Origin: Candidatus Gallionella acididurans
GTDB lineage: Bacteria; Pseudomonadota; Gammaproteobacteria; Burkholderiales; Gallionellaceae
Length of the DNA: 58,000 nt
Reading direction: 5' to 3'
Assembly: GCA_001577345.1 (NCBI GenBank)
Contig: LSLI01000011.1
Span: 1-58,000 of the forward strand
Shown here: in pieces, positions 27,897 through 52,798 of the stretch
Layout of the letters: each line of letters begins with the position of its first letter
How positions within the stretch are numbered: the stretch's first letter is position 1
Program-made: the position numbers and the translations under genes
Notes under the pieces: generated by a model
Told to the model about the DNA's origin: nothing
Seen by the model: only the letters and a program-made list of their open reading frames with translations
Database searches by the model: none

Positions 27897-28994
27897 CTAT
27901 CCTAAATACGGCCGGTTTTTTGCGCCGGTCAGGGCAAAATTTTCCATCGTTCGGCGCGCAATATTCTGCAACGGCATCACTTCGCACACCGCACCGGCAG
28001 CTATCGCCTCCTTGGGCATACCGAATATCACGCAGGTCGCCTCGTTCTGGGCGATGGTAAATGAACCTGCCTGCTTCATTTCCAGCAATCCCTGCATGCC
28101 GTCTTTCCCCATGCCGGTGAGAATGATTCCGGTCGCGTTGGCGCCCGCGACATTGGCCGCCGAACGAAACAGCACATCAACCGATGGACGATGACGATTC
28201 ACCAACGGGCCCTGATCCAGCTGGATCAGATAATTTGCGCCGCTGCGCTTGAGCAGCAAATGCGAGTTTCCCGGTGCAATATAGGCATGGCCCGGCAGGA
28301 CACGCTCGTTATGCGCCGCTTCCCTGACCGAAATCTTGCACAGAGCGTCCAAGCGATTCGCAAATGACTTGGTAAAATGTTCCGGCATATGCTGGGTTAC
28401 CAGCACACCCGGCGCATCGGCAGGGAGCTTGGCCAGCACCTCCTTGATCGCCTGGGTTCCCCCGGTTGATGCGCCGATGACAATCAATTTTTCCGTGGAG
28501 GAATACCGACCGGCAACGCTGGGCAGAATCACATCCGCGGAAAAGTTTTCCTGGGTTGCCAGCGCGGTCGTCTTATGCACCCGCGCCTGTGCGACTGCGC
28601 GTATCTTTTCGGTAATCTCGCCTGCCGACTTTTCCATGCCATCGGCAATACCCAGTTTCGGCTTGGAGATAAAGTCTACCGCGCCCAATTCCAGCGCACG
28701 CAGAGTTATGTCAGAACCCTGTTCCGTCAGCGTGGAAATCATCAGCACCGGCATCGGACGCCAGCGCATCAGCCTTTCAAGAAAATCCAGCCCGCCCATC
28801 CCGGGCATTTCCACATCCAGTGTCAGCACGTCCGGATTGCGCTCCATGATCATTTCCCGCGCCGACAGGGGATCGGGTGCGGTGCCGACGCACTCCATAT
28901 CCTTTTCGCGATTGATGATCACCTTCATCAGGCTGCGTATCAGTGCGGAATCGTCGATCACCAACACCTTCAGCTTGCGATTTTTCATGGGCAT
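27897..28994 (-). CDS. cheB: Chemotaxis protein-glutamate methylesterase/deamidase CheB
   Basis: Demethylates and deamidates receptors after phosphorylation by CheA. The N-terminal receiver has phospho-acceptor Asp60 in [12 protein letters not shown]. The C-terminal methylesterase has the catalytic Ser in [10 protein letters not shown], His in TQHMPEHF and Asp in GMGKDGMQG. Length 365 aa. It is the last gene of the che operon after cheR and cheD. Confidence 0.96.
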
Positions 28995-29043: not shown

Positions 29044-29658
29044 TCAATCAAACAGCTCCACATCACCTTCCAATTTGGCATATTGCAGGCGCGTGTTGTA
29101 TTCCGCCTCACGGCTGATGATCGTATCGTTATGCACCTGCTTCAGGTTCTTCACCCTGACCAAACCGGTAGCGGGAAAGTAATACACTTTGCGCGGATTG
29201 ACATCCAGCATATCCTGGGCGACAACAGGTATTTTTTCCGTCTTTAGAAATTGCGTGACGAATTCGGCATTGCGTTCGCCCACATTGTTGACGGTAAAGC
29301 CCCTCAGCACCGAGGCTCCGCCGAACACCTTGGCCTCAAAGTTACTCCGTTTTGCACCCATCTTGAGCAACTGGTTTATCAGTATTTCCATCGCATAAGC
29401 GCCATAGCGTGCCGATGCGCCAAGCGGATTGTTGCGGTCCTGTCCGCTATGCGGCAGCATGAAGTGGTTCATTCCGCCGATTCCATTGACCTTGTCGCGT
29501 ATGCACGCGCAAACGCAGGAACCCAGAACCGTGACCAATACCATGTTCCGCGCTGTTGCATAGTATTCCCCGGGAAGTATCTTGGCCGCCTCGGTATTAT
29601 GTTCGCGGTCAAAATACAGATGCGGAGACAATATCTCTTCATAACCTTCCCTGGACAT
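29044..29658 (-). CDS. cheD: Chemoreceptor glutamine deamidase CheD
   Basis: Deamidates receptor glutamines and can interact with CheC-type phosphatases. The catalytic Cys is in VLGSCVCACIRD and the catalytic His in GGMNHFMLP, followed by KVFGGASVL. The ATG at 29658 follows GAGAGGG and gives 204 aa. ATG 29682 and TTG 29697 are alternatives. It lies between cheR and cheB. No CheC or CheX is seen in the window. Confidence 0.94.
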   Translation of the reverse strand: MSREGYEEILSPHLYFDREHNTEAAKILPGEYYATARNMVLVTVLGSCVCACIRDKVNGIGGMNHFMLPHSGQDRNNPLGASARYGAYAMEILINQLLKMGAKRSNFEAKVFGGASVLRGFTVNNVGERNAEFVTQFLKTEKIPVVAQDMLDVNPRKVYYFPATGLVRVKNLKQVHNDTIISREAEYNTRLQYAKLEGDVELFD

Positions 29659-29697
29659 AGCGGAACACCCTCTCTGCCCCATCTTCAGGGCAATCAA

Positions 29698-30573
29698 TTA
29701 TTTTTTAGCCTGCCGGTACGCATGAGCTCCGGAATCAGTCAACTCATACACCGTCTTGCCGCGCGACTTGAACAGGTGTTTTGCATTGTATAAGCTTTCC
29801 GAATGCCCGGAGAAGACCAGTCCGTCCGGCTGCAGCAGGGGGGCGAAACGCTGCAGTATCCTGAGCTGCGTTGCCTTGTCGAAATAGATCATCACATTGC
29901 GGCAAAATATCGCATCCAAAGGACCGCGTATCGGCCAGACATCATTGAGTAAATTAACCTGCATGAAAGTTATCATGGCACGCAATTCGGGCCTTACCCT
30001 GACGAACCCCGATTGCTTTCCGGTTCCCATGAGGAAGTGTCGTTTTACCACTGCCTCGGAAAGCTTTCCGACACGCTCGACAGGATAAATTCCGGCGTCC
30101 GCTGTCGCCAGCACACTGGTATCCACATCAGTGGCGATAATGGAAATGTCGGGCGCAAAGCCGCCAAATGTGTCTGCCAGCGTCATCGCCATCGAGTATG
30201 GCTCCTCGCCGGTCGAGGCGGCCGAGCACCAAAGAACAACCTTGTGTTTTCCCCTTTGCCTGGCGACATGCTCCGCCAAAATCGGGAAATGGTGGGGTTC
30301 GCGAAAGAACGAGGTCAGGTTGGTGGTTAGCGAATTGACGAATGCCTGCCACTCTGCATCGTTGCCTTCCAGCAACGCCAGATAATCCTTGAAATTATTG
30401 ACCCCCGTCGCGCGCAAGCGGCGTGCCAGACGGCTATAAACCATGTGCTGTTTGGATGGCTTCAGCGAAATACCGGCATGCTCGTAAATCAGCTTGCAAA
30501 TTCTTTTGAAGTTCTCCTCGGTGAACACGAATTCACGTTCGCGCCCGTCGCTGGTTTGCAGCTTAATGGTCAT
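29698..30573 (-). CDS. cheR: Chemotaxis protein methyltransferase CheR
   Basis: SAM-dependent methylation of receptor glutamates. An N-terminal helical domain (FKRICKLIYEHAGISL) is followed by the Rossmann domain with VVLWCSAASTGEEPYS, ATDVDTSVLATA and IFCRNVMIYFD. Length 291 aa. The preceding receptor ends in a CheR-tether-like pentapeptide. A terminator lies between the receptor gene and cheR, so cheR-cheD-cheB may also have its own promoter. Confidence 0.96.
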   Translation of the reverse strand: MTIKLQTSDGREREFVFTEENFKRICKLIYEHAGISLKPSKQHMVYSRLARRLRATGVNNFKDYLALLEGNDAEWQAFVNSLTTNLTSFFREPHHFPILAEHVARQRGKHKVVLWCSAASTGEEPYSMAMTLADTFGGFAPDISIIATDVDTSVLATADAGIYPVERVGKLSEAVVKRHFLMGTGKQSGFVRVRPELRAMITFMQVNLLNDVWPIRGPLDAIFCRNVMIYFDKATQLRILQRFAPLLQPDGLVFSGHSESLYNAKHLFKSRGKTVYELTDSGAHAYRQAKK

Positions 30574-30872: not shown

Positions 30873-32594
30873 TTAGAACTCGCGCCACTCCCCGTCCCGG
30901 TCATCCTTGCCGTCTTTAATTTCGGCCACTCTTCGCCCCTTCCCCTGTTGGGTCAGTGCAGCCAACCGGGCGGCCCGTGGAATTGCAATAACCGCAGGTT
31001 TAACGGGATTTGCAACAGCCATCCGGAATTCTTCACCGCCCGCCTGCAGCTTGAACACGTCTACCGCTTGTTTCAATGCTTCCGCCTGCCCCTGCATCGC
31101 CTCGGCAGCGGCGGCCGCCTGTTCCACCAGCGCGGCGTTCTGCTGCGTCATGTCGTCCATTTGCACGATCGCCTGGTTGACTTCCTCTATGCCCGCGCTC
31201 TGCTCGCTCGAGGCCGCCGAGATCTCGGCCATGATATCGGTGACGCGCTTCACCGCATCGACGACTTCATGCATCGTGGCCCCGGCCTGGTCCACCTGTT
31301 TCGAGCCGGCATAGATTTTGTCCATTGAGGTGTCGATCAGGACCTTGATTTCCTTGGCCGCCGCCGCCGAGCGTTGCGCCAGGTTGCGCACCTCGGATGC
31401 CACTACCGCGAAGCCGCGCCCCTGTTCGCCGGCGCGCGCCGCTTCCACGGCGGCGTTCAGCGCCAGGATGTTGGTCTGGAAGGCGATGCCTTCGATGACG
31501 CCGATGATGTCGGCGATCTTCCCCGAGCTGGCGCTGATCAGGGCCATGGTCCGCACCACGTCGTCCACCATCTGGCCGCCTTTGGCGGCGATATCCGAGG
31601 CGTTGACCGCCAGTTGTTTGGCCTGCTTGGCGTTCTCTGCGTTCTGCTTCACGGTCGAGGTCAGCTCTTCCATGCTGGAGGCGGTCTCTTCCAGGCTGGA
31701 GGCCTGTTCTTCGGTGCGCTGCGACAGGTCGCTGTTGCCCGCGGCAATTTCCTGCGCGGCAGTGCTGATGGAATCGGTGGTATTGCGCACCTTGCCGACG
31801 ATGCCGGTAAGTTTGTTGATCATGTCCTTGACTGCGAACAGCATGCTGCTGTTGTCGCTTCCCCTGGTGCTTACTTCAACCGCCAAGTCTCCATCCGCCA
31901 CGCGCTTGACCACTTCGGCGACATAAGCCGGTTCTCCGCCGAGTTGCACTACGACGCTGCGGGTGATGAGCCAGGAGATGAATGCTCCCAGCAGCAGCGC
32001 TATGGCCGCCAGTGAAATCACCATCACGCGCGCGGTGAAATAGGCCGTGTGGGCCGACTCCACGCTTTTTGCAGTATCTTGCTCCTGGGATGAAATCATT
32101 TCGGACAGCTCTGCCAGCCACTTGTCCTGGTTAGGCTGAACTTCATAGATCAGAACCTGTGTCGCCTCGAATTTTTTGCTGTCTCTGCCCAACCGGATGG
32201 CTTTATCGATCTGCGGCTGGGTCTGGTTTCGAGCTTCCGCGATTTTCGCAAGCTGCGCCATCTCGGATTCATTCTTGATCATCGAATTCAATAGCCTGGC
32301 ATTTTCGTCATATTCTGCCCGTGCCTTGGTGATGAGTGCGGCTTGCGCCTCCACACCCTCCTCTTCGAGGATCAACGCGATATTGCGCACCGCAATTGAA
32401 ATGGTGTTCAAATCTCCGCGCATGGCATATAGACGTGCTATTTTCACCATGTTGTCCTGGGTAACGCCGTCCATCTTGTCCTGTATTTTCGCCATCAGCG
32501 ACAGGCCCAAGCCTGCCAGCATGACCATCAGCACCAGCACTACACCAAAGCCCAAGCCCAGGCGCACTCCTACTTTCAGATTCCCCAGCGACAT
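30873..32594 (-). CDS. Methyl-accepting chemotaxis protein with C-terminal CheR-tether motif
   Basis: Inner-membrane chemoreceptor of 573 aa. The first membrane helix (about residues 10-32) is followed by a periplasmic four-helix-bundle-like domain (about 35-185), a second helix (about 188-212), HAMP, and the cytoplasmic hairpin with the tip [20 protein letters not shown]. The last residues are GEWREF, which fit the W-x-x-F tail that tethers CheR/CheB in enteric receptors (NWETF). GGGGGGAAGT before the ATG at 32594 decides the start. It follows cheW, so it is probably the dedicated receptor of this che operon. The ligand cannot be told. Confidence 0.94.
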
Positions 32595-32641
32595 ACTTCC
32601 CCCCGACTTAAGCAATGATTTTGAAACTTGATGCGGGCAAT

Positions 32642-33133
32642 TTAGGCGGCGGATTCTGCCGCCTCGACCAGTTCCATTTCGCGGCTGGTCATCAGCTTCT
32701 CGATGTCCACCAGGATCAGCATGCGCTCGTCCACCGTGCCCAAGCCCTGCAGGTAGCGGGTGTCCATGCCGGCCCCGAATTCCGGGGCCGGCTTGATCTG
32801 CTCCGCTTTCAGCGTCAGCACGTCGGACACGCCGTCCACCACCATGCCCACCACCCGGTTCGCCACGTTCAGGATGATCACCACCGTGGTTTCGTCGTAG
32901 CTGACCCGGCCCAGCCTGAATTTGATACGCATGTCCACGATGGGCACGATGCTGCCGCGCAGGTTGATCACGCCCTTGATGAATTCGGCGGTGTTGGCGA
33001 TGCTCGTCACCGCATCGTAGCCGCGGATCTCCTGCACCTTGAGGATGTCGATGGCGTATTCCTCGGCGCCCAGCGTGAAGGTCAGCAGCTCGCGACCGGA
33101 TCCCGCCGCTCCCGGTTCCTGATCAGATTGCAT
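32642..33133 (-). CDS. cheW: Chemotaxis coupling protein CheW
   Basis: Links the receptor to CheA. A single CheW domain of 163 aa: [52 protein letters not shown] and [18 protein letters not shown]. It lies between cheA and the receptor gene on the same strand. Confidence 0.95.
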
Positions 33134-33232: not shown

Positions 33233-35365
33233 CTAATCCCCATGCTCCCGCGACATGAACCGCTGCGACAATTTGACCAGCGAACTCACGTCCATGATCA
33301 TGGCGACCCGTCCATCACCCATGATCGTGGCTCCGGACACGCCATCCACCTTGCGGTAATTGGTTTCCAGGCTCTTGATTACCACCTGATGCTGCCCTAC
33401 CAGTTCGTCCACGAACAGGGCGACCTTCCGGCCTTCCGTTTCCAGCAGCACCAGTATCCCTTCGCAGGGATCGGTTATTTTTGGTTTGATATTGAACACT
33501 TTATGCAGCGTAATGATCGGCAGATATTCGCCCCGCACTTGTACCAACTTGCCTTGCCCGCCGACTTCATTGATATCGCCGGCCCCGGGCCGGAACGACT
33601 CTATGATGAAGCCGAGCGGAATGATATATATCTGCTCGCCCACGGCCACAGACAAGCCATCCAGAATCGCCAATGTCAGCGGCAGGCGGATAGCGACGGT
33701 GCTGCCTTTTCCCTGCCGGGATGTTACATCGACACGGCCGCCGATACCCTCGATATTTCTTTTCACCACGTCCATGCCCACGCCGCGCCCGGAAACATCC
33801 GTGATGGCGATTGCTGTTGTAAAGCCGGGGGCATAAATCAATTTCCAGACATCTTCATCGCTCATGCCGTCACTGACGGATATGCCATTCTCCCTGGCTG
33901 TTGCCAGTATCCGCTCGCGGTTCAAGCCCGCCCCGTCATCCGACACCTCAATGACGATATTGCCGCCCTGATGAGCGGCACGCAGTGTGATGGTGCCTTG
34001 CGGGTCCTTGCCCCTGGCGACACGGTCCCCGGGAAGTTCGATACCGTGATCCAGGCTGTTGCGCACCAGATGGGTGAGCGGGTCGCTGATTTTTTCGATC
34101 AGTCCCTTGTCCAGCTCGGTACTCTCACCAATGATTTTGAGTTGCACCTTCTTGTTGAGCTTGCCTGCACTGTCCCGCACCACACGCTGGAAGCGGTTGA
34201 ATACCAGGCTGATCGGCATCATGCGCACCGACATCACCGAGTCTTGCAGGTCGCGGGTGTTGCGCTCGAGCTGCGCCAAGCCATTGATCAGCTGTTCGTG
34301 CAACACCGGGTCCATACTGGATACGATTTCCGCCAGCATGGACTGGGTGATGACCAGCTCCCCGACCAGATTGATCATCGCATCCACTTTGCCCACGCTG
34401 ACACGGATGGAAGTGTCGCTTCCTGTTACTGCAGAAACCCTGTCCGCAGCACGGCGGCCGGGGACGTCATCGTGCCGCGCATCCAACCGGGGCGGCGGCT
34501 GGATCCGGGATACGGGTTCTTCGAAGAAACCATAACCCTGAGCATTTTCCCTACCCGATTTTATCGCCCCGGGTTCCACGAAAAAACCATAGCCCTCGCC
34601 ATCCGCACTGACCGGGTACGATTCATCAAAAAGGCCGTATCCCTGCCCGACACCGACCGCGTTGTCGGGGATGGTCTCCCGGACCGAAATTGCAAGCTGT
34701 TCCGGCTTTAGAAAGAACGAGAATATCTCGCGCAAATCCGCTTCGGATGCGTAAGCGGTCAGTGACAAATCCACCGCATCATCGGTAATTATTTTATTTT
34801 CGATCTTGCCCAGATTGCCCAGGTCATCAAGCAAATTCTCGAGGTGAAGCCGGTCAGGAAAGATGCCGGGCGAATTGGCAAACCGGATTCTGTAAACATG
34901 CCGCACGGAAGTATGCGTCTTTGCGGCGGGCGGATGGGCACTTCCCACCGCGGGAGCCCCGCCTGAATTATTGGCCAGGCGCTCCAATGTTGCGCAAATC
35001 TCCATGGAGGCCGCTTCGTCGGCAACAGTTCCATTCTGGTGCGCCTCCAGCAAGCCACGCAGCACATCGCCCGCGTGCAGAATTGCGTCCACCATTCCGC
35101 GCGTGAGTGCAATCTCATTTTTGCGTATGCGGTCCAGCAACGTTTCCAGAATATGGGTCACATCGGCCATATCGGTAAAACCGAAAGTGCCGCTGCCCCC
35201 TTTTATGGAATGGGCAGCACGGAAAATTGCATTTAGCTGGTCCGCATCCGGCGCATCCGGATCGAACGCAAGCAACAGACTCTCCATGCTCGCGAGATGT
35301 TCGGCGGCCTCGTCAAAAAATACCTGGTAGAACTGGCTCATGTCGATGGACATAGGCTCTTCCAT
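33233..35365 (-). CDS. cheA: Chemotaxis histidine kinase CheA
   Basis: Phosphorylates CheY and CheB. The 710-aa chain has P1 with phospho-His52 (RAAHSIKGGSGTFGF), a P2-like region (about 155-240), a linker with three GYG(L/F)F repeats, P3 dimerisation, and P4 ATPase with H-box LVRNSLDHGIE, DDGAGLN and SGRGVGMDVVK. A C-terminal CheW-like P5 follows. No receiver domain is fused, which separates it from the two hybrid CheAs upstream. Start: ATG 35365; ATG 35353, preceded by GGAAGAG, is equally possible. Confidence 0.95.
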   Translation of the reverse strand: MEEPMSIDMSQFYQVFFDEAAEHLASMESLLLAFDPDAPDADQLNAIFRAAHSIKGGSGTFGFTDMADVTHILETLLDRIRKNEIALTRGMVDAILHAGDVLRGLLEAHQNGTVADEAASMEICATLERLANNSGGAPAVGSAHPPAAKTHTSVRHVYRIRFANSPGIFPDRLHLENLLDDLGNLGKIENKIITDDAVDLSLTAYASEADLREIFSFFLKPEQLAISVRETIPDNAVGVGQGYGLFDESYPVSADGEGYGFFVEPGAIKSGRENAQGYGFFEEPVSRIQPPPRLDARHDDVPGRRAADRVSAVTGSDTSIRVSVGKVDAMINLVGELVITQSMLAEIVSSMDPVLHEQLINGLAQLERNTRDLQDSVMSVRMMPISLVFNRFQRVVRDSAGKLNKKVQLKIIGESTELDKGLIEKISDPLTHLVRNSLDHGIELPGDRVARGKDPQGTITLRAAHQGGNIVIEVSDDGAGLNRERILATARENGISVSDGMSDEDVWKLIYAPGFTTAIAITDVSGRGVGMDVVKRNIEGIGGRVDVTSRQGKGSTVAIRLPLTLAILDGLSVAVGEQIYIIPLGFIIESFRPGAGDINEVGGQGKLVQVRGEYLPIITLHKVFNIKPKITDPCEGILVLLETEGRKVALFVDELVGQHQVVIKSLETNYRKVDGVSGATIMGDGRVAMIMDVSSLVKLSQRFMSREHGD

Positions 35366-35422
35366 GGGGTTTTCATTCCGGGAACTCCGGCTGGGACAGG
35401 CATCAGTTTGCAGGCGGTGACA

Positions 35423-35788
35423 TCAGCCAATCACCTTTTTGACCACCTCCAGCAATTTATGCGGGTCGAACGGCTTGACCAGCCAGCCCGTCGCTCCGGC
35501 CGCCCTGCCCTGATTTTTCATGTCGTCACTGGATTCGGTGGTCAACATCAGTATCGGCGTGGACACGAACTGGGGAAGCGCCCGCAACGCTTTGATCAGC
35601 GCCAAGCCATCCATCCTTGGCATGTTCTGGTCAGTCAGTATCAGATCGATGGCATTGGCCCCGGCCTTGTCCAGCCCTTCCTGGCCGTCAGCCGCCTCAA
35701 TGACGGCATAGCCGGCAGATTTAAGGGTAAAAGCCACCATCTGACGAATGGAGGTGGAGTCATCAACAGCCAAAATAGTTTTCGCCAT
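35423..35788 (-). CDS. cheY: Chemotaxis response regulator CheY
   Basis: Single-domain receiver, 121 aa. Acidic pair in LAVDDSTS, phospho-acceptor Asp53 in ILTDQNMPRMDG, conserved Thr in LMLTTESS and Lys in WLVKPFDP. The start MAKTILAVDDS is chosen at 35788. It is followed by cheA and preceded by the membrane CheZ-like gene. Confidence 0.95.
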   Translation of the reverse strand: MAKTILAVDDSTSIRQMVAFTLKSAGYAVIEAADGQEGLDKAGANAIDLILTDQNMPRMDGLALIKALRALPQFVSTPILMLTTESSDDMKNQGRAAGATGWLVKPFDPHKLLEVVKKVIG

Positions 35789-35891
35789 TTTTTCCCGCTC
35801 AGAATGTATAGTTAAAATGGTAATTCCAGAGTACTGAACCAGGGCATTAATTACCAAAAAATGCCGTCGGCCATTGCCATGCTTCCCAAAA

Positions 35892-36782
35892 CTAAAACAA
35901 TTCTATATCGCCCGTGCCAAAGTTTTTCTGCGCGACAGGATTGGCTTTCTGCCTGTTCAGCGACACAACGTATTTGTCCAGCAGGAGATTATAGGCGGCG
36001 ATTTGCTCCATATACTCCTTGTGTGTCGGGCTGCCCGATTTGCCTTTGCCCTTGCCCATTTCACTTGCCACCTCCTGCAGTGCGGCCATGCGCATTCTGG
36101 CGTGCTCAATCAGCTGTGAACTCATATCCTGAAACTGCAGGGTGGATATGACCACCAGCACATTCTGTTCCACATTGGCGCTGATCATATTAAGCTCAAG
36201 CGCATTATCAGCCACGATTTGATTGAAAGAATTCAGGTACGCCGTCATGGCCTGAATATGCCGACTGGATTCCGCTGCCAACGCAGCATTGCTTTCCGCA
36301 GGGTTGCTGCCGGGATATTCCGGAACCGCCAGAGAGCGCCCGACATCGGCTGCCAGGTCCTGGATCTGTTTGCTGAAATCATTGGTATGGCGGGAAAGAT
36401 CGCGCACTCCGTCGGAAATCGCGATGAAATTGCTTACCAGCCTGGATATGGCATCATTGAGTATCGCCTGCGTGTTGCCCAATTCGGTGTGTGCCGAGCT
36501 GAGTTGTTCGGATATCTCATTGCCCAGCTGCACGTGAAAGGCACTGCTCTCCTGGAGGAACTCGTGCCCGCTCGATGATAACGAATCTGACGCGTTCCTG
36601 AAATTTTCGCCGGCTTGCCTGACCAGATAGCCCAAACACACCAGCATGGTCAAGAACACCAGCACATCGGCCAGCAGATATCTTGAATTGTGCAGATACA
36701 GTATTACGTCCCCTCCCAGCAAGATGCCGCTAATCAATGCACCGGCTGCGGCAAGGCGGGAGTAATTTTTAATGCTTGTCAT
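35892..36782 (-). CDS. Membrane protein with CheZ-like D-x3-Q motif, possible tethered CheY phosphatase
   Basis: A 296-aa protein with two N-terminal membrane helices (about residues 9-30 and 36-55) joined by a very short loop. A long, mostly helical cytoplasmic part follows, without HAMP or the canonical receptor tip. Near the end of the helical region it reads LQFQDMSSQLIEHA, with Asp219 and Gln223 spaced as the catalytic D and Q of CheZ (FQDLTGQ in E. coli). A Gly/Lys linker (GKGKGKSG), a second helix pair and the extreme C-terminus GTGDIELF follow. That acidic/hydrophobic tail recalls the CheY-binding tail of CheZ. It sits directly upstream of cheY, and no classical cheZ is present. Function is inferred. 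ATG 36782 is preferred over GTG 36812. Confidence 0.75.
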   Translation of the reverse strand: MTSIKNYSRLAAAGALISGILLGGDVILYLHNSRYLLADVLVFLTMLVCLGYLVRQAGENFRNASDSLSSSGHEFLQESSAFHVQLGNEISEQLSSAHTELGNTQAILNDAISRLVSNFIAISDGVRDLSRHTNDFSKQIQDLAADVGRSLAVPEYPGSNPAESNAALAAESSRHIQAMTAYLNSFNQIVADNALELNMISANVEQNVLVVISTLQFQDMSSQLIEHARMRMAALQEVASEMGKGKGKSGSPTHKEYMEQIAAYNLLLDKYVVSLNRQKANPVAQKNFGTGDIELF

Positions 36783-36986
36783 TTCCTGAATTCCACTCGT
36801 TTTCCCGCACACAATTTGTTATCCCCCGGGATACGAACCCGGCCCCGCGAAGCCTTGCACCATCGCGTCAAATACTAACGTGTTTAAGTTGGTGTAACAA
36901 CCGAATGTTACCGCGTTTGCCGCACGGGAAACCGGCCGGGAGCGGGTTTTCGCAACCGGTCACAGCGGAAGAATATCGCGAGAAAT

Positions 36987-39869
36987 TCAAGCCGGTGCAG
37001 CCTTCTCATGGGCGCTGCCGGCTTGCAGGGCAGCATGCACATGCCGCAGCAAATCAGTATCGGTATAAGGCTTGGTCAGGTAGATATCGACCCCGGCGCG
37101 CCGGGCCTGCTCGCGATGCTTTTCTGTCGAACGTGAAGTGATCATGATGATGGGCAGGTGCCGGGTGGTCTTTTCCAGGCGCAAATGCTGTGCGAGTTCC
37201 ATGCCATTCATGTTGGGCATTTCCAGATCGGTGCAGATTATGTGCGGATCGAAGGATTTAAGCACGCGAATCGCCTCCATGCCATCTCCCGCACCCTTGA
37301 CTTCATAGGCTGCATCCTGAAGTAGCTGCATCAGTCCCCTGCGTACGGAAAGCGAATCGTCCACAACCAGTATTCTGCGCACATGGCGACGGGCGGCCGC
37401 GGCCAGATCGGCGGCGGCCTTAACTGCGATCGGCGAGGCAAGCAATTCCGGAACGTTGAGCAGCGGCACCAGAGAACCGTCGCCCAGTATGGTCACGCCG
37501 GAGAGGCCGTGCACACGGGGCAGATATTTTCCCATGCTCTTTACCATTACGCTGCGGCTGTCGATGAGTTTGTCGACCAGGATCGCCTTGATGCCGTCTA
37601 TTGTGCGGATCAGGACTTTAGGCATGGCGGCAAACCGTTCAGAGCCCGGCGGCGGGGAAGGATAGCCGGTCAGCAGGGACAGATCATGCAGCGGAAAACT
37701 CTCGTCCCGCATTATGAATTGCCAGCCGGCACTGCCTGTATTTTTTTCTCCGGCGGTTTCAGCGTAATGGATCCTGCCCAGTCCGGCGGGGAACGCTTCC
37801 TTGATGTAATGAATTGGAATGGCAAAGACCTGTTCCCCCGCCTCAACCAGCAAGGTGTGCTGTGTCACCAGCGATGCCTGGAAGCGCAATACGACTTCGC
37901 ATCCGTTTCCCGGCTCCGAGCCGAGCTCTACCGTTCCCTTGATATTAGCCAGGCGAGATGCCACCACATCCAGGCCCACTCCACGCCCGGAAATTTCATT
38001 GACCTGATCCCGGGTTGAAAATCCCGGCAGCAGGACCAGACGGGCAAGTTCAGGGTAAGTGAGTTGTTGTTCCTCGCGTATCAGATTCCGTTCGACCGCC
38101 TTGGCGCGGATACGGACATAATCCAGGCCCCGACCATCATCGCGGATGGTGACGATAATTCCGGATCCCTGCCGGGAAAAATCAAGTTTGACCATGCCTT
38201 CCGGCGGCTTTCCTGCAATTGTTCTTTCCTCGGGTAATTCGATGCCATGATCAACCGCATTACGCAGGATATGCAGCAGCGGATCAGCCAGCTTGTTAAG
38301 CACATCGCCATCTATCTGGATTTCGCCGCCGGTAATTACCAGCCGTGCCTGTTTTCCCGTTTGCTGGCAAGTCTGTCGAACATTGCGCATCAGGCGCGCT
38401 GTCAAAACGCTAGCCGGGGCAAGCCGCGTTGCCGCGACCTGATACTGGAGTTCCTTGTTGATGTTGGCCTGTTGCACAACCTCGCTGCGCAAGCTGGACA
38501 CGCCGGCTTCAAGGCTGCCCGTCATTTCGCGGGCATCGGCGGTAACCTCGACCAAGGCCTGGGTAACGCCATGCAACTCTGTGTAGCGGTCCAGTTCCAG
38601 CGGATCGAAAGACCCGTCTTTTCCGGAATCGGTCCGTGCCAGCGACAGGCCGCGCAACATCACTATCTTCTCAATGTCGGTTACCTGTTGCCGGAGCGCA
38701 TAATTGTGCGATAGCAACGCGGCTGCGCGGGCAGTCAAATTCGCCACCTGCGATTCAACCCTGGCGATTACTGCGGTCATCTCGCCAACCAGCCTGAAAA
38801 TTTCATCCACGGTATTGACCGGCACACGCAGCGTTGCCTGTGCTTCGATTTCCGGTGCGGGGGCGGAGGTGACTTCCGGTTGCGGCACATCGGGTGATGC
38901 CGGCTGAACCTCGACATCGCCATCGTCGGTCATGTTGGCAATGTCGCCCGATTTGACTTTGTTTGCCCAGGCCACGATCTGATTCAAAACTTCAAATGAA
39001 TTCTCGGGCTGATCCTCGTCACCGCGAAGATAGCCCACCATTTGCGCGAGGCAATCGCTTGCCATAACCAGAGACCGGCCAAGTGCGCGCGGGGGCTTTA
39101 CCGGATTCTTTTCGAAGTATTCAAGCACGTCTTCGGTATGGTGTCCAAGTGCCGCTATTCCTCGTATCCCGACGATGCTGGCCGATCCCTTGAACGAATG
39201 CGCGATTCGTTTGGCGCTGCGCATGTCGTCAATATCCGCATCCCCCGCCGCGATCCTCGAAGTCAGCACCGCGAACTGCTCCACGCTGCCCGGAGCCTCG
39301 TCCAAAAATGCGTCATAAACTTCGCGGTCTGCATTCTCCGGCACGGCAAGGGATATGTCTTCGATACTCACGCTGGCGGGCGTATCGGCCCCGTCAAGCT
39401 GTGCCACCAGTTCCTCCGGTTCGAGCGGCGGAGTAGTCAGCAATTCGATCAAATCCAGTCTGGCAGACTCGCCAAAAGATTGCGCAAACAATGGATTCGA
39501 CAAGTACTCGGCAAGCTCCATCGATGCGTTGAAATTTGCGGGATCCTGCAAATACCCGTCTACCAATACCGGCCAGACGGCCAGATGCCGGCAGGCCAGC
39601 GCACGGACATCCCCCTGCAGAAAAATGATGCCGGGCAATATCCCGTTCAATGCGGCGCACCAGGCGCCCAACCCGGCCAGGCCGATCAGCTCGGCTGTTT
39701 GGCCGATACGCTCCAGCTGGGTGGCGTAATCTTCCAATGCTTCCATCAACCGCGGATCGTCATCGGCGGCAGTGGCTATTGCATTTGTCCAGCGCTCGAA
39801 ATCTGCGGTGGTTTGCGCAAGCTCCTTGCGCATTTCGGAAAAAAACGGGGTGAGCGCTTCTATAGCCAT
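36987..39869 (-). CDS. Hybrid CheA-type histidine kinase with receiver (ChpA-like, second module)
   Basis: A 960-aa kinase. The N-terminal helical region (about 1-140) is HPt-like but lacks the histidine. A functional-looking HPt has His224 (RIAHSFKGSASIVG). Then come dimerisation and ATPase domains (ILRNAVDHGIELPEE, IRDDGRGLDYV, ISGRGVGLDVVASR), a CheW-like domain and a C-terminal receiver with Asp881 (ICTDLEMPNMNG). The receiver end (IIMITSRSTEKHRE) closely resembles that of the large ChpA-like kinase at 43569-49184 (IIMITSRTAAKHRE), pointing to paralogy. It follows its own PilJ-like receptor gene by 37 bases. Confidence 0.92.
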   Translation of the reverse strand: MAIEALTPFFSEMRKELAQTTADFERWTNAIATAADDDPRLMEALEDYATQLERIGQTAELIGLAGLGAWCAALNGILPGIIFLQGDVRALACRHLAVWPVLVDGYLQDPANFNASMELAEYLSNPLFAQSFGESARLDLIELLTTPPLEPEELVAQLDGADTPASVSIEDISLAVPENADREVYDAFLDEAPGSVEQFAVLTSRIAAGDADIDDMRSAKRIAHSFKGSASIVGIRGIAALGHHTEDVLEYFEKNPVKPPRALGRSLVMASDCLAQMVGYLRGDEDQPENSFEVLNQIVAWANKVKSGDIANMTDDGDVEVQPASPDVPQPEVTSAPAPEIEAQATLRVPVNTVDEIFRLVGEMTAVIARVESQVANLTARAAALLSHNYALRQQVTDIEKIVMLRGLSLARTDSGKDGSFDPLELDRYTELHGVTQALVEVTADAREMTGSLEAGVSSLRSEVVQQANINKELQYQVAATRLAPASVLTARLMRNVRQTCQQTGKQARLVITGGEIQIDGDVLNKLADPLLHILRNAVDHGIELPEERTIAGKPPEGMVKLDFSRQGSGIIVTIRDDGRGLDYVRIRAKAVERNLIREEQQLTYPELARLVLLPGFSTRDQVNEISGRGVGLDVVASRLANIKGTVELGSEPGNGCEVVLRFQASLVTQHTLLVEAGEQVFAIPIHYIKEAFPAGLGRIHYAETAGEKNTGSAGWQFIMRDESFPLHDLSLLTGYPSPPPGSERFAAMPKVLIRTIDGIKAILVDKLIDSRSVMVKSMGKYLPRVHGLSGVTILGDGSLVPLLNVPELLASPIAVKAAADLAAAARRHVRRILVVDDSLSVRRGLMQLLQDAAYEVKGAGDGMEAIRVLKSFDPHIICTDLEMPNMNGMELAQHLRLEKTTRHLPIIMITSRSTEKHREQARRAGVDIYLTKPYTDTDLLRHVHAALQAGSAHEKAAPA

Positions 39870-39906
39870 AGGGGTTTAATTATGAGCCCATACTCCGCTG
39901 ACTGGT

Positions 39907-41745
39907 TCAGCGGATAAAAATCTGGGTTTGTTCACTTTCCGTTTCCAATGTGGACGGCAACTTGAACACCGAAATCGCACTCACCAATTTCTGCGATGCC
40001 GACACGAGGCTCGCGGCACTCTGGTTTTGTGCAACCAGCTGTTCGGCAGTTTTCTCGGTGAACTGTGCGATCTCATCCGCGGCGGCGCGCAACACCACGG
40101 CAATCTTGGTCTGCTCAGCGGAACTGTTGGCAATCGTGGCAACCAATCGCACCAGCCGCGCCGTGGCCTCATGCGTCTCGCGCATCCTTTCGCCGGCGTT
40201 GTGCGCCAGTTCGGATTCCTTGATCACCTGCTCGATGGTCTTGTTCACCGTTGCAATGGTATCGTTGGTTTCGACCTGTATGTTCTGAACCAGTTTGGCA
40301 ATTTGCCCGGTGGCCTGGCGCGAATTCTCCGCAAGGCGCTGAACCTCTTCCGCCACCACAGCAAATCCGCGCCCCGCCTCTCCAGCCATCGCGGCCTGCA
40401 TCGCGGCATTGAGCGATAGCACGTGGGTGCGCTCGGAAATGGTATTGATCAGGTTGACAATCTGGGATATCTCCTGGGAACGTTCGGCGAGACGCTTGAT
40501 GCGTTTTTCCATTTCCGAAATGGTTTCGCGAATGGCATTCATACCGCTCAGTGTTGCCTGCACCGTCTCCATCGCGCTTTCCGTGGACTTGGTGGCCTCC
40601 GCCGCGGCCCGGTTCGAATCCCTGGCAAATATCGCCACCTCGCCTATCGAGGCCATCGCGGTTTCAAGGTTGGAAATCAGCCTCACGACGATGACATCCT
40701 CCTCCTTGGCCATCTCGTTCACCACATCCGACTGTTGTTTCATGCGCTCGGATGCATCCTCCACAACTCCCGCAACCTTGGTCACATGATGCAACACGGT
40801 TGCAGTGACATCGGTCAGCTGGTTGATCGCATCACCCAGGGTGCCGATGATGTCGTCTGTCACCGGCGCACGAACCGTCAAATCCTTCTGTGCCAATGCG
40901 CCCATGGCTGAAAACAGCCCGATCACGGAATTGTTAAGACGTTCATTTTCACTCACTGTGGATTTGAGAGACGCGATACGCTCATCCAGCAACTTGTCGA
41001 ATGCGCGTCCGACTGCCGAAAGCTCATCACGCTTACGCATATTCATGCGCACCTCGTAAACACCGCTCTCGACTTTTCTGATCCCCGACAACAAGTGATT
41101 CAACGGATTCGAGATGCCCCGATAAACGTAGGTGGCAAGGAACACAAGCAGCACGCATACCACACCAGCCCCGGCGATATAAGCGGTGCTTTCGATTTTC
41201 ATGGTCTGTTCCGCGTTTTTGCGAAAATCCCCGGCATCGGCAGCAATCAGGGCGTTCAGCGTTGTCCGGGCTGCTTTCAGCTTGCTGAACTTGTCGGTGA
41301 ACTCGGTTAGCTGGACATCGGTGCCCGCACCACCTGCCAGTGCTTGAGTTGCGACACTGCGCGCCGATTTTGCAAAATCATCCGCCCCCGCGCGAATAAT
41401 CCCGACCGCCTGCCGGGTTTTTTCCGGAAATGCTTCGGAGTTCATCTGTATAACGATGCCGCTGAGTGACTTGAGGGTGCCATCCAGGCTTTTTAATGCC
41501 TCACCGTAAGTCACCGTATTGCCGATTTTGGCCTCGCGCACGATCTGCAGCACTTCGCTTTGCGCCTGTTCGAGAACCTGGTTCAGCTGCAATTGGGTAT
41601 TGATCGCACCGAAATTATCCTGTGTACGAGAGACAACATCGCCCAGCCAGGACGTTACGCAGTAGCCTGCCGCGCTCACCAGGATGGTGAACGACAGCGA
41701 GACGAAGCTAAAGGCTATCAATTTGGCGCGTACAGTTGCAAACAT
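39907..41745 (-). CDS. PilJ-like methyl-accepting protein (second module)
   Basis: Inner-membrane receptor of 612 aa with helices at about residues 8-30 and 192-212, a periplasmic domain between them, HAMP, and a signalling hairpin. The tip reads [19 protein letters not shown], followed by [13 protein letters not shown], matching the PilJ type rather than the chemotaxis type. The start at 41745 follows CAGGAGA. It is paired with the hybrid kinase just downstream. The C-terminus has no CheR tether. Confidence 0.92.
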
Positions 41746-41777
41746 GACTTTCTCCTGAAATGCCAATCAAAATTTCA

Positions 41778-41800
41778 GGGCGCAGCCTGTCGCTGCGCCC
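41778..41800 (-). terminator. Strong hairpin between the CheW-like and PilJ-like genes of the second module
   Basis: GGGCGCAGC (41778-41786) and GCTGCGCCC (41792-41800) form a perfect 9-bp stem around 5 bases. On the minus strand it is followed by TGAAATTTTG, a weak T-run. It may attenuate transcription into the receptor and kinase genes or protect the upstream mRNA end. Confidence 0.5.
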
Positions 41801-41849
41801 CGATGCGGAATGTGGTTGTCGAGCACGAATATTGCGGTCATCAAAGGTG

Positions 41850-42383
41850 TCAGAGGGGCGCAGGCTCGACAAGAAAAACCGAATCGAAAAACGCGTCGGT
41901 ATCAAGGTCGATCCAGATATCCCGTCCCTCCCTGTACGCACCCTTGGCGCAAGCGGCAATGGGATGGCCGATTTCCGCAAGGCTGACGCGGTCATCGTCC
42001 ACGAATTTTTTGCGTTCCGGCAGGCTGCTGGTGGTTATCCCCACTGCCCCGTCCCCGCGCCCGCACACCAGCAACCACGGGTTCTCCGCGCCTTCGTGAC
42101 GGACGCCAAACAGGTCGGCCATGTCTATCACCGGCACCACCCGTCCATGGCGATTCACCAGGCCTTTTACTCCGCGGGGCGCTCCGGGCAGGCGGAACAG
42201 CGGCGGCATAGCCACCACTTCGCTGGCACTCTCCATGCTCACGAGCAACCTGAGGTCCCCGACTTGAAATCCCCGGCGATGGATGTGGAGCGCGTGTTCA
42301 GCTTCAACAAGCAGGCGAGCTGCAATTTCGGCATCGACCTGCGACTTTAGAACATTTATATCTATAGATTGGACAGAATTCAT
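41850..42383 (-). CDS. PilI/CheW-like coupling protein (second module)
   Basis: A 177-aa protein with a single CheW domain after a short helical N-terminal extension. FQVGDLRLLVSMESASEVV, GVKGLVNRHGRVVPVIDMADLF and LLVCGRGDGAVGI fit the PilI/FrzA type. It lies between the regulator gene upstream and the PilJ-like receptor gene. ATG 42383 and GTG 42392 are both possible, and neither has a good ribosome site. Confidence 0.87.
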   Translation of the reverse strand: MNSVQSIDINVLKSQVDAEIAARLLVEAEHALHIHRRGFQVGDLRLLVSMESASEVVAMPPLFRLPGAPRGVKGLVNRHGRVVPVIDMADLFGVRHEGAENPWLLVCGRGDGAVGITTSSLPERKKFVDDDRVSLAEIGHPIAACAKGAYREGRDIWIDLDTDAFFDSVFLVEPAPL

Positions 42384-42588
42384 CTGTGGCACTTGTCAGA
42401 AATTAAATATATTGCAAATTGATTATATCGGCGTATTGCCCTGTACGCACAGCACGTTTCCCGTTCCCGTTTGCATCCGCTACCCGCCGTTTTTCAGACC
42501 AGCCGAATCCCCCGGGCAGTTAAGGTACTTCTGTCGCTCCGGGCCGGAATTAGCCCGCCGGATCATAATGCGCTGCAGATATTCATGA

Positions 42589-43458
42589 TCAATTGAGCCG
42601 CAGAAACCTGGCTATCGTTGCTAGCAACTTTTCTTCGTCGACCGGCTTGGTGAGATAGGCATCGCAACCTGACATCGAGCCGCGGATCTTGTCGAAAGGC
42701 GAGTCCTTGCTGGTCAGCATAACGACCGCCGATTTTTGTGCGGACCTATTGGACTTGATCAGTTTGCACACCTGGTATCCGTCTATCCCCGGCATGACGA
42801 CATCCAAAAAAATACAGGTGTAATGTTTCTGTCCGGTAAAACCGATCGCTTGTTCGCCGTTCTCGGCATAGTCCACGTTGAAATTGAACGGGGCCAGTTT
42901 ATTCTTCATGAATTCCCGCACTGTCAGGTTGTCATCCACCACCAGCACGGATTCGATCCGGGGATTTTGCGCGCGCCAGACACCGGAAATCTCGCCTGCC
43001 GACATTTGTGCTTTTGCGGCGGGAATCTGCAAGGCAGCTTCTTCGATCCCGGCATCCGGTTGCATGTCCGGACTTTTTGCCGCGCCCAAGGGTCTTGCCG
43101 TGCCGGGTGCCAATGCAGGTGCCGGTGTTTCGCTTGGCCGCGATCCGATCGCAACGTCAAACGCCTGAAAGAGTTTCATCCATCTTATCGGGCGCGCAAG
43201 GAGGGGCCAGCCGGTTCCGCGGTTTGAGTCGCCAACCATGATCGTCGGGATGACGCCCGACGCATTACGTTCGCCCAGCAACCTGACTGCCGCGATGTCA
43301 TTCGCATCGACCAGAAGAATATCCGGGGGTATTTCGAACGCATTATGCCGCGCAAACTTCGGCACGCGACGCGAAGACAGGTCGAACACGCTGGTCAACG
43401 CCATCAGCTCGGTCTGGTTGAAGCCGATCACTTCAACCGAATAGGTATCTTTTTTCAT
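42589..43458 (-). CDS. Response regulator with N-terminal pseudo-receiver and C-terminal PilG-like receiver
   Basis: A 289-aa protein. The first about 100 residues have a receiver-like alternation (PDILLVDANDIAAVRLL) but no acidic pocket or conserved Thr/Lys arrangement. A Pro/Ala linker follows, then a complete receiver: VLVVDDNLTV, phospho-acceptor Asp219 in IFLDVVMPGIDGYQ, and MLTSKDSPFDKIRG. That last stretch matches PilG here (MLTSKDTLFDRARG), so this is probably the PilG equivalent of the second module. There is no output domain. Confidence 0.9.
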   Translation of the reverse strand: MKKDTYSVEVIGFNQTELMALTSVFDLSSRRVPKFARHNAFEIPPDILLVDANDIAAVRLLGERNASGVIPTIMVGDSNRGTGWPLLARPIRWMKLFQAFDVAIGSRPSETPAPALAPGTARPLGAAKSPDMQPDAGIEEAALQIPAAKAQMSAGEISGVWRAQNPRIESVLVVDDNLTVREFMKNKLAPFNFNVDYAENGEQAIGFTGQKHYTCIFLDVVMPGIDGYQVCKLIKSNRSAQKSAVVMLTSKDSPFDKIRGSMSGCDAYLTKPVDEEKLLATIARFLRLN

Positions 43459-43568
43459 TGCGTTCTTTAGTATTCTGGAACTTGATCAGCAGGATTTAAA
43501 TTTACCAGGTCCGCCAGCCAACAAGTTTTCGGGGGGGGTCAGTGCTATTCGGGATTTAACACCCCCGC

Positions 43569-46500
43569 CTATTTATGCACGGCCATAAAGTCGGCGATAT
43601 TCTGCAACAGGACATCTTCCTGGTAGGGCTTTCCAAGATAGGTATTGACGCCCAGTTGCATCGCGTATTCACGATGTTTGGCTGCCGTACGGGAGGTGAT
43701 CATGATAATCGGCAGATCAAGAGTTTTGGGATCACGACGCAAATGTTTTGCAAGCGCGAATCCGTCCATGCGCGGCATTTCGATATCCAGAAGCATCACA
43801 TCGGGAGTGAATTCCGCCAGTTTTTCCAGCGCATCGACGCCGTCCGTTGCGGTAATCACCTGATAGCCGGCACGCAGCAGCATGCGCGTGGTGATCTTGC
43901 GCACGGTGAGGGAATCATCAACCACCATGATCAAGGGCTGGGTAACAAGCGGCTTGACGCTGGCCGCCTTGCCTGACTTCCCGGTGACGCCGCTACGCTG
44001 CGCCAACTGGATCGGGTTCAGGATCAGCAACACCCCGCCGCTGCCCAGCACCGTTGCACCGGCTACCCATGGCATTCTCGCCAGTTGCGGGCCGATATTT
44101 TTCACCATGACTTCCTGCTTGCCCAGAAACTCGTCAACATGCAAAGCAATTCTTTGTTCACCGCTGCGCAACAGCAGAATTGCGTTCCGCGGCAAATTTT
44201 CCTCGTCCGCATCCTGTTTTCCAAGAATATGGGGCAAGTAGTGCAAAGGATAGATGGCGTCCCGCCATTCGATTTGCCCGGCGCTGTGCAAGGACTCCAT
44301 ATCCGCCAATTTCACCTGCTGGACTTGTTCGATCATCGTGGCAGGGATGCCGTAGTTTGTTTCACCGGCACGCACCAGCAATATCTGCGAGACTGCAAGT
44401 GTCAGCGGCAAATGAATGACAAAACTTGTACCCTGCCCGCTCCTTGAGCTGACATCGATGCGTCCGCCCAGCGCCGATATCTCGCTACGAACCACATCCA
44501 TACCAACACCGCGTCCTGCAATCTCTGTGACTTCAGTCGCCGTGGAAAGTCCGGGCGTGAAGATCAATTGGGTCAATTGATCCTCGCTCAACTGTTCACC
44601 TGCCTGCAGCGTGCCGTTGATTATGGCTCTCTCGCGCAATTTCGCAAAATTCAAGCCGGCCCCGTCATCGCTGAACTCAAACACGACTTCATTGCTCTCC
44701 TGACGCAAGTTCAGGCGAATCTCGCCGATCGGATGCTTGCCGCTCTGCGCGCGCAACTGCTCGCTTTCCAGGCCGTGCACTATGGAGTTGCGCAGCAGGT
44801 GCTCGAACGGCGCAATCATTTTTTCCAACACGCTGCGATCCAGCTCCACATTCGTGCCCTGCAACTCAAGGTTGGCGCGCTTGTTCAGTTCCTTGCCGGT
44901 TTGCCGCACGATGCGGTACAGGCGATCTGCAATACTGTCGAACGATACCATGCGCACATTCATCAAACCCTGCTGCAGCTCGCGGCTAAGCCGCCCTTGT
45001 GCCAGCATCGAAGCGGCGGTTTCATTCAGGTGCTCCAGCATGGATTGCTGGACGGTTTGCACGTCATGCACACTCTCGTTCATGAAGCGCGTCAATTCCT
45101 GCAGGCGGGTGAACCGGTCGAATTCGAGTGGGTCGAACTGATCCGCGTGATCTTTTGCCAGCGAGACCCGCGCCTGCATCTGGCTTTCAGCCTGAATTTC
45201 AACCTCCCGCAACTGCTGGCGCAACCGTGCAACACTGGCAGTCAATTCCAGCAAGCCCTCCTTGTAGACGCGCATCTCGGTTTCCATGCGCGAACGGACC
45301 ACGCTGATTTCACCGGCTTCATTAACCAACCTGTCCACCACGTCGGCGCGGACACGCAACATGTTGCCGAGCGCAGCGCCCGGTTCCCCTCGCCGGTCAG
45401 CTCTGCGCTCCAAACCGGCAGGCTGATCCGCTGCGCGCCTGAATGGGGTAGCGGCAGGAATTTTCACCTGCATGATTTCGGCCGCGGGCTTGCCACCGCG
45501 CAATTCCTCGAGCAAGGCGGTGATCCGGTCATAATCACTTTCCAGCGTATCCCAATATCCCGCCTGACCACGCTGGTGCGAAGCCGCCACGCGGCCTTCC
45601 ATTTCATGGGCAATTTCACCGATACGCATCGCGCCTACCATGCGCGAACTGCCTTTCATGGTATGCAGCAGGCGCTTTAATGATTGCACCTGCAGTTCAT
45701 CCAGCGGGGATTCGCGCAACAGGCGCAGCCCCTCGCCGATCCTGGGGCCCAATTCATCGGCTTCCTCGATGAACACGGGTAGAAGTTGTTCGTCCAGATC
45801 GTCGTAGACTGTGGGTTCGCTACCTTCCTCAACCGCAATGGCGGGCTCTGCGATAAGCAGCGTATTCCGCAGTATTGCCGCGAAGTCGGCGGCCGGCACT
45901 TCTCCGGTGGTTGTGCCGCGATCGCCGCCACTTTCGTCACCGGACAGGATTGTGTTCATATCATCGCCGGCCTGGAATTCGACCGCATCGATATACGTTT
46001 CAAACCGCTCGACAGGCAGGGTCGGATGCAACGCCATATCCTCCGCCATGACCGGCTCCTCAGGCAGGCTGCTTTTGCCGGCATCGCCCAGCCACTGCGC
46101 TGCCGATTGCTGTTCCGCATGCGGAATGGCTGCCGCATCATTTTCTTCCGGGACAGCGGCAAATTTGCCCATATCAGCCAACAGGCCGGCAAATAGCTCG
46201 TCGTTGATTTCGGGCTTGTCCGTTTCAGGTTGCCGGTTTTGCGATAGCGATGGTGAAGCGTGAGTCGTGGCTTCCGGCGAGTCGGCGACTTCCATGGCTG
46301 CATCGCCAAGCCTGTCCTTGTCGGCCAATAATTGGGCAACCAGGTCGCTGCGCACCGCCGGTATCTGCTGGTCACCGATGTCATGCAACATTCCATCCAG
46401 TGCGGCAATCGACTGGTCCAGCATATTCAACTGGCTGTCGCCCAGCGTGAATACGTGATCCACGCGCACCACCAGCCAGCCTTCCAGCGCGGACGCCAAC

Positions 46501-49184: not shown

Positions 49185-49202
49185 GTGCAGTTTTGCGCGA
49201 AA

Positions 49203-51224: not shown

Positions 51225-51250
51225 TCTATATATCCCTCCCTAGCGGGAAA

Positions 51251-51748
51251 CTAACTGCCGATTTGTAAAAATTCCGCCTGTTCCAGCAGGCCCTGCACAT
51301 CCAGCCTGCTCCAAGCCCCCCCCTGCTCATCGTGATACACGACTTGCTTTTCCAAAACCTCGCTTTGGCTCCAGTTCCGGGCATCGCGCAGACCAAATAT
51401 CTTATCAACCAGCAATGCCGCGTTGAATGCATATCGTTCAGCAACCAGCAGCACACGGTTATCGGCATCTCCGCTTGCCGTCCCGCTGTGATCATAGGCT
51501 GCCATGTCGATCACACCAAACAAATTGCCCCGCACATTCGCCACACCGCGAAACCATGGCTTGGCAAAGGGCACCGCGGTCATCGGCGGCATTGGAGAAA
51601 TCTCGCTGATGTCCGCCATATCCACCAGCCAGTTAGCTCCCGCAATTTGCACACCCAGTGTTGATACACGGAACGCCGACACGTCGGTTTCCTGCAGCCG
51701 ATCTATCAGGTTCTGCTGGAATTCCCGCAAGTTGAGACGCTTCGACAT
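51251..51748 (-). CDS. pilI: Pil-Chp coupling protein PilI
   Basis: CheW-domain adaptor between PilJ and ChpA, 165 aa: VQIAGANWLVDMADISEI, PWFRGVANVRGNLFGVIDM and VLLVAERYAFNAALLVDKI. The start MSKRLNLREFQQNL at 51748 is chosen. It is 26 bases ahead of pilJ, and the gap to pilH upstream is 177 bases with no gene in it. Confidence 0.92.
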   Translation of the reverse strand: MSKRLNLREFQQNLIDRLQETDVSAFRVSTLGVQIAGANWLVDMADISEISPMPPMTAVPFAKPWFRGVANVRGNLFGVIDMAAYDHSGTASGDADNRVLLVAERYAFNAALLVDKIFGLRDARNWSQSEVLEKQVVYHDEQGGAWSRLDVQGLLEQAEFLQIGS

Positions 51749-51925
51749 GGCACTGGCCTCTAAAAAATGGGGGCTCGCCGCAATGCTTCGCGGGGAAACA
51801 TTGATTCGGCGCAGCCCGGATGCTGCGCGCAAACGCCGGCCGAACCCAGGGGAAATCTTATTTTGGCCAGCCGTACCCGTACGGTTTCCATAAAGTTACG
51901 GCATTCGGTTTGCATAATGCGCCGC

Positions 51926-52694: not shown

Positions 52695-52798
52695 CTTGTT
52701 CCCTCTTGCATAGGCACTGGTGTACTCATCCACATGATGTTCTGAACGGCTGTCGGGCGACAATGCTAACGTATCTAGCCCATGCTGTCATGGCGATT

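Follow-up and report, generated by a model that had tools for sequence, protein, structure and literature searches.

McpA/CttP-like receptors (P. aeruginosa PA0180, V. cholerae VCA1088, and S. oneidensis SO_2117) have two membrane helices and a conserved C-terminus without the CheR pentapeptide, and their genes lie beside an F7 cheY-cheA cluster. The available part of PMC7184735 calls this C-terminus highly conserved, with a role that was unclear as of 2020, and makes no mention of a phosphatase role for these receptors. In the literature we covered, seen in part and with bioRxiv and most subscription journals outside the coverage, there was no statement of the McpA C-terminus as CheZ-like. 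McpA of S. oneidensis was found together with CheA3, which belongs to the F6 array, and overproduction of McpA raised swimming, as did that of three other receptors (from the accessible portion of PMC9855816). The word CheZ is absent from the main text of that paper. The V. cholerae gene list places cheZ in cluster II only (available section of PMC11940527).

Here we describe P0001, a protein encoded in the window (the whole 58,000-nucleotide stretch of Candidatus Gallionella acididurans DNA that was analyzed; Table 1). P0001 is like these receptors in its two membrane helices, in a conserved C-terminus without the CheR pentapeptide, and in its place beside a cheY-cheA cluster, the F7 class of which was inferred from gene order and not from a class model. 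It is unlike them in having no MCP signaling hairpin. We think it likely that P0001 is a CheY-P phosphatase anchored in the membrane and acting as CheZ does, and this reading starts from what the sequence itself provides, which is the anchor, motif, tail, conservation, cheY pairing, and descent of P0001. The cytoplasmic parts of CheZ and MCPs are both antiparallel helical hairpins that dimerize into four-helix bundles. The CheZ proteins of Helicobacter and Campylobacter are reportedly remote or atypical, keep the D-x3-Q pair, and have no membrane helices. Azorhizobium CheZ resembles P0001 in that it keeps the D-x3-Q pair despite little overall similarity, but it is described without membrane helices, whereas P0001 is anchored and receptor derived. 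CheC, CheX, and FliY are CheY-P phosphatases of another fold with an E-x3-N motif, and no match to them was among the Pfam matches of P0001.

Table 1. Coordinates of P0001, its parts, and the downstream che genes in the window
Feature	Position	Strand	Basis
Gene P0001, 296 aa + stop codon	35892..36782	-	Open frame; dN/dS to three near relatives
Membrane helix 1, residues 4-29	36696..36773	-	Model helix; hydropathy segment 10-28
Membrane helix 2, residues 33-54 of model helix 33-67	36621..36686	-	Model; hydropathy 36-54
First long helix of predicted cytoplasmic hairpin, residues 70-152	36327..36575	-	Model
Second long helix, residues 164-247, bears the motif	36042..36293	-	Model
CheZ-like motif LQFQDMSSQLI, residues 215-225	36108..36140	-	Conservation in 38 rows; profile alignment to CheZ
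D219	36126-36128	-	Within LQFQDMSSQLI of P0001
Q223	36114-36116	-	Within LQFQDMSSQLI of P0001
C-terminal tail GDIELF, residues 291-296	35895..35912	-	Family conservation; disordered in model
cheY, presumed substrate	35423..35791 (ATG at 35791)	-	PF00072; F7-like CheY group
cheA with CheY-binding P2 domain	33233..35365	-	PF01627, PF09078, PF02895, PF02518, PF01584
cheW	32642..33133	-	Open frame; matched by CheW neighbours in relatives
Operon MCP	30873..32615	-	PF00015, PF12729
cheR	29698..30573	-	By eye and gene order
cheD	29044..29697	-	By eye and gene order
cheB	27897..28994	-	By eye and gene order

An earlier note, made from the DNA alone, had proposed two N-terminal membrane helices and a long helical body. 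Both were recovered, as hydropathy segments at residues 10 to 28 and 36 to 54 and as a hairpin in an AlphaFold2 model (62-row alignment, for which 61 of the 80 named loci were drawn on; mean pLDDT 79.4, pTM 0.50). The model has helices at residues 4 to 29, 33 to 67, 70 to 152, 164 to 247, and 254 to 279 and a disordered C-terminal end. The note's LQFQDMSSQ is at residues 215 to 223, has D219 and Q223 at the CheZ spacing as claimed, and falls on the second long helix of the model, so that the motif is helical there, contrary to one of the note's refuting conditions. GDIELF is indeed the last six residues. We rejected this tail as a CheR tether because the second of the last five residues is isoleucine, which is not aromatic. 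The C-terminus of the operon MCP, EWREF, fits the published tether pattern x-[HFYW]-x(2)-[HFYW], and this MCP has a four-helix-bundle sensor domain (PF12729). P0001 is under purifying selection, with dN/dS values of 0.141, 0.141, and 0.137 against L132, L133, and L134 (synonymous sites were saturated against L135 to L137). A consensus promoter scan of positions 35200 to 37100 gave nothing informative.

As the note had said, P0001 heads a same-strand run of cheY-cheA-cheW-MCP-cheR-cheD-cheB. A hybrid CheA gene (Hpt, kinase, CheW, and receiver domains) is directly upstream of P0001 and is preceded by a PilJ-like MCP gene. Positions 36987 to 52763, upstream of the che operon, hold a run of PilL/ChpA-like, PilJ-like, CheW-like, and response-regulator genes, apparently two such sets, with a 1871-aa ChpA-like kinase and a 960-aa hybrid CheA. 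The proposal that P0001 replaces a classical cheZ holds no further than its own gene cluster: contig C2 of the same genome encodes a canonical CheZ (PF04344, 256 bits). That CheZ belongs to a second che cluster (L052), one that has CheY-like and CheA-like genes of its own, and its presence rules out P0001 as the sole phosphatase of the genome. No second copy of P0001 was found in the genome.

A whole-protein search found relatives of P0001 in 78 of 200 genomes of the order, and a profile of the C-terminal part matched in 102 of the same 200 genomes and in 115 of 369 genomes of the class. The nearest named relatives are from Gallionella and Gallionellaceae assemblies and one Nitrosomonadales assembly. 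Plasmids gave no match in tblastn searches with a short form and with a Pseudomonas C-terminus. The order-level search yielded 40 larger stretches, in which 37 open frames match P0001. Alignment A1 (38 rows) comprises P0001, 36 of these frames, and the more distant L069; L068 was left out. All 37 frames, 80 proteins from the named loci, and P0001 make up 118 collected family proteins.

Q216, F217, D219, and Q223 are invariant in all 38 rows of A1, including the D/Q pair to which the earlier note had drawn attention. A bare D-x3-Q would be common, but because these four residues are invariant and dN/dS is low, the motif goes beyond chance. The tail is conserved too, with a final Phe in 118 of 118 family proteins and GDIELF in 49. 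When the nine motif columns were masked, the family profile still recovered 30 proteins from the 30 class-level loci, among which L103 is the window, and 118 from the remaining loci; every one has QFxDxxxQ (30/30 and 118/118). This control is only partly selection-free because the class-level loci were fetched with a motif-containing profile and the 80 named loci with a motif-containing pattern, leaving only the order-level rows free of motif selection at fetching.

P0001 and CheZ (E. coli, PDB 1kmi) share the motif FQD-[LM]-x-x-Q-[LV]-I. Counting along the alignment puts this D and Q at positions 143 and 147 of 1kmi_Z, and QDFQDLTGQVIK is invariant in 19 canonical CheZ proteins of these genomes. 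The two proteins also share a helical hairpin (predicted in P0001), then a linker and an acidic/hydrophobic C-terminal tail ending in Phe, and the gene adjoins cheY in both cases. From the D to the C-terminus there are 77 residues in P0001, 63 to 83 in the family (median, 74; n = 118), and 68 to 75 in canonical CheZ (median, 70; n = 19). An AXXFQ motif lies next to DXXXQ in CheZ (available part of PMC7750401), and its position reads TLQFQ in P0001. However, P0001 differs from CheZ in being membrane anchored and receptor derived, its tail is GDIELF rather than ...DLLESLGF, and the similarity is confined to the region around the motif. By the Pfam test, P0001 is outside the CheZ family, with no PF04344 match at an E value of ≤10 (gathering cutoff, 30.7 bits). 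PF04344 matched 10 of the 38 relatives at an E value of ≤1, the best at 0.0016 and 18.8 bits against that cutoff.

In hhalign, the short forms and the whole family each scored 27.0 against CheZ. When columns were shuffled (30 times for each), the highest scores were 18.7 and 19.8, and reversed CheZ scored 13.0 and 14.3. The alignment to CheZ at the motif covered 24 to 31 columns with a probability of 11 to 21%. Against MCPs, the short forms scored only 13.7, and the whole family scored 24.2, as would be expected from an MCP helix common to both. We also searched 3646 open frames, 118 of them family members, with a CheZ profile. The top ranks were 14 clear CheZ proteins, the canonical L055, and two divergent CheZ-like proteins (L230 and L231), and the next 16 matches at an E value of ≤1 were 13 family members, two other LQFQD receptors, and one other protein; the matches are related to each other, so this ranking carries no P value. 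P0001 itself had an E value of 2.3. The two divergent CheZ-like proteins (L230, 5029 to 5571; L231, 4383 to 5048) have FQDLAGQAL and a tail, SLLKDLMP, without the final Phe, and L231 adjoins a CheY. Foldseek and VIA-align searches of the PDB returned mixed helical bundles, with MCP cytoplasmic domains in some lists, and were uninformative either way; CheZ (1kmi) was not among the best 50 matches listed in any of the four lists. A PDB profile search with the C-terminal alignment returned repeat and coiled-coil matches only. A model of the short form L210 was poor and was not used (pLDDT, 61.8; 8 alignment rows, including two fragments).

The shortness of the sequence likeness to CheZ, together with a tail and motif that are equally well kept in the family, would suit a noncatalytic role. 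The tail and motif helix might hold CheY or CheY-P at the membrane as an anchor or sink, or compete with CheA or an output protein, with the D and Q used for docking. We consider this unlikely, since the two invariant residues are those that CheZ uses for catalysis, set in the same FQD..Q surroundings, and docking would not need this exact pair.

The pairing of the family with cheY was examined from the side of the response regulator. The window's CheY had 143 matches at an E value of ≤1e-30 in the 200 genomes of the order, and they fell into two groups: 91 F7-like matches of at least 160 bits and a second group of 52. A family match lies upstream, on the same strand and within 3.5 kb, of 81 of the 91 F7-like cheY genes, and for 77 of these it is within 700 bp. 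Searches of the ten exceptions with phmmer and the motif pattern found no family candidate in any. In one of them (G122), 0.5 kb of contig precedes cheY, and elsewhere in that genome a family gene is truncated where a different contig stops; in another (G164), an MCP-like fragment is upstream of cheY. The second group may be the F9 class, and VC1394 of the V. cholerae F9 cluster has McpA topology (available part of PMC7534058). A family match is upstream of 34 of its 52 members. Seven of the 18 exceptions were inspected; L226 has a FQDRISQ...DITFF receptor that the profile missed, and six show none. Directly upstream of this second kind of cheY, L053 (8244 to 9449), L069 (9123 to 10337), and L226 (1865 to 3052) encode MCPs roughly 400 aa long that have LQFQDRVSQ-like motifs and end in tails such as DITFF.

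Counted from the side of the family, 115 of 147 matches in the order genomes adjoin such a cheY, and 67 of the 80 named loci have a CheY of >100 bits within 2.7 kb downstream. The other 32 of the 147 matches are not beside a cheY (E value of ≤1e-30). Several are strong (e.g., G002:C37, G045:C59, and G162:C29), and these proteins may serve other response regulators. PF04344 matches occur in 127 genomes but not in G022, G113, or G180, three genomes of 97 to 99% completeness in which a family match adjoins cheY. Otherwise, the genomes of the order mostly hold both.

The note had offered no characterized example of this layout. However, P0001 is not a one-off; it is a shortened relative of the McpA/CttP-like receptors that has lost the MCP hairpin. 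Of the 38 rows of A1, 25 match PF00015, the Pfam MCP signaling domain, and P0001 has no match to it at an E value of ≤10. In the alignments, P0001 is without the ascending MCP helix and tip, and its residue 119 leads directly into what is the descending helix in its relatives. An MCP hairpin precedes the module in 93 of the 118 proteins; the remainder are either short and soluble or built as P0001 is, with membrane helices but no hairpin. (Our build labels are A, 93; B, 13; and C, 12, and are to be read with caution, as B includes L176 and L181, fragments with frames starting inside the MCP hairpin, and the 412-aa L195 is counted as C through a strict pattern.) One soluble member of 153 aa, at L044 (8655 to 9113; G029:C4), has no che gene around it by the queries used.

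In a tree of the module, P0001 and L132 to L137, seven proteins that all lack the hairpin, form one clade with support of 100/100, nested inside hairpin-bearing Gallionella-group proteins. Therefore, the hairpin was lost once here. Starred branches of the whole tree, which has few columns, many open forks, and an unsettled bootstrap, require the hairpin label to change at least four times. By its sequence, P0001 is thus a descendant of McpA/CttP-like receptors and not itself a receptor of that family. Loss of the MCP hairpin in some lineages while the motif and tail stay counts in favor of the CheZ-like phosphatase reading.

The window shares its immediately upstream hybrid CheA gene with all five hairpin-less loci of the Gallionella group for which flanking sequence is present (L132 to L135 and L137; L136 has no flank). 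In contrast, none of the nine hairpin-bearing loci L138 to L146 has a strong match to it (L139 has one weak 53-bit match). Seven of these nine have another CheA (250 to 300 bits) in the upstream stretch, and the same seven hold a canonical CheZ in the locus. From this contrast, loss of the receptor tip accompanied loss of an F6-like neighborhood, and a single event of this kind fits the reports of the McpA receptor part serving the F6 array. The same contrast could be taken to mean that P0001 acts on the receiver of the hybrid CheA, or links the PilJ/PilL-like system to the che operon, rather than acting on the adjacent CheY. We find this quite improbable, because pairing with a downstream cheY (81 of 91) is far wider than the hybrid-CheA neighborhood. 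Least probable of all is that P0001 is a leftover of an McpA-like receptor, either decaying or structural, without an independent role, because, although it lacks the hairpin and is nested among relatives that have it, the seven hairpin-less proteins form one clade with motif and tail kept, the frame is intact beside cheY, and the dN/dS values (0.137 to 0.141 where computable) rule out a pseudogene or remnant as the main reading.

A CheY phosphatase fits P0001 because of its motif, its D-to-C-terminus distance, and its place beside cheY. We infer its dimer, CheY binding, catalysis, and place in the cell as follows. The two N-terminal helices hold P0001 in the membrane, and the cytoplasmic part, a predicted long helical hairpin, probably pairs with a second copy to make a four-helix bundle. 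The GDIELF tail would bind the product of the adjacent cheY, whose phospho-Asp would then be attacked by water with the help of D219 and Q223 in the second helix. In McpA-like proteins, the module may be the membrane-proximal end of one continuous hairpin, the far end of which is the MCP tip, and removal of the MCP part would shorten the hairpin and leave a CheZ-like one. Since the MCP hairpin and tip are lost, P0001 should no longer join the CheA/CheW array through the tip, and it would be a phosphatase tied to the membrane and not to the array through a tip of its own. Such a phosphatase probably descended from receptor-phosphatase fusions, and the Gallionella proteins amount to a natural deletion experiment in which the receptor tip is dispensable and the CheZ-like module stays.

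A wider and more interesting claim concerns the McpA-like receptors themselves, and here we see the balance as even. They could be receptor-phosphatase fusions, with the conserved C-terminus as the built-in CheZ of F7-type (perhaps also F9-type) systems that have a cheY and no cheZ of their own. McpA is reported to reside in the F6 array, so one chemosensory system would carry in its array the phosphatase acting on the CheY of another, which would wire the two together, and the Gallionella protein would be that phosphatase freed from the receptor tip. If true, this would propose the missing CheY phosphatase of F7-type systems, give a role to the receptor tail discussed in PMC7184735 (in its available part) as highly conserved and of unclear role in 2020, and provide a physical link between two chemosensory systems.

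Two further loci bear on published layouts. In P. nitroreducens (L152), downstream of the family gene come cheY, cheA, cheW, and the gene for a receptor matching Pfam McpB HAMP domains. This gene order is the Pseudomonas F7 layout, with McpA/CttP and Aer2/McpB receptors, given in the available part of PMC7184735, and the C-terminus EVELF fits the valine published for the second position, as far as the source extends. At L038, the family gene is separated from cheY by genes for a STAS protein and a receiver-SpoIIE-ATPase protein, and these resemble the anti-sigma antagonist and serine phosphatase that the same part of PMC7184735 lists with mcpA in stages 1 and 2.
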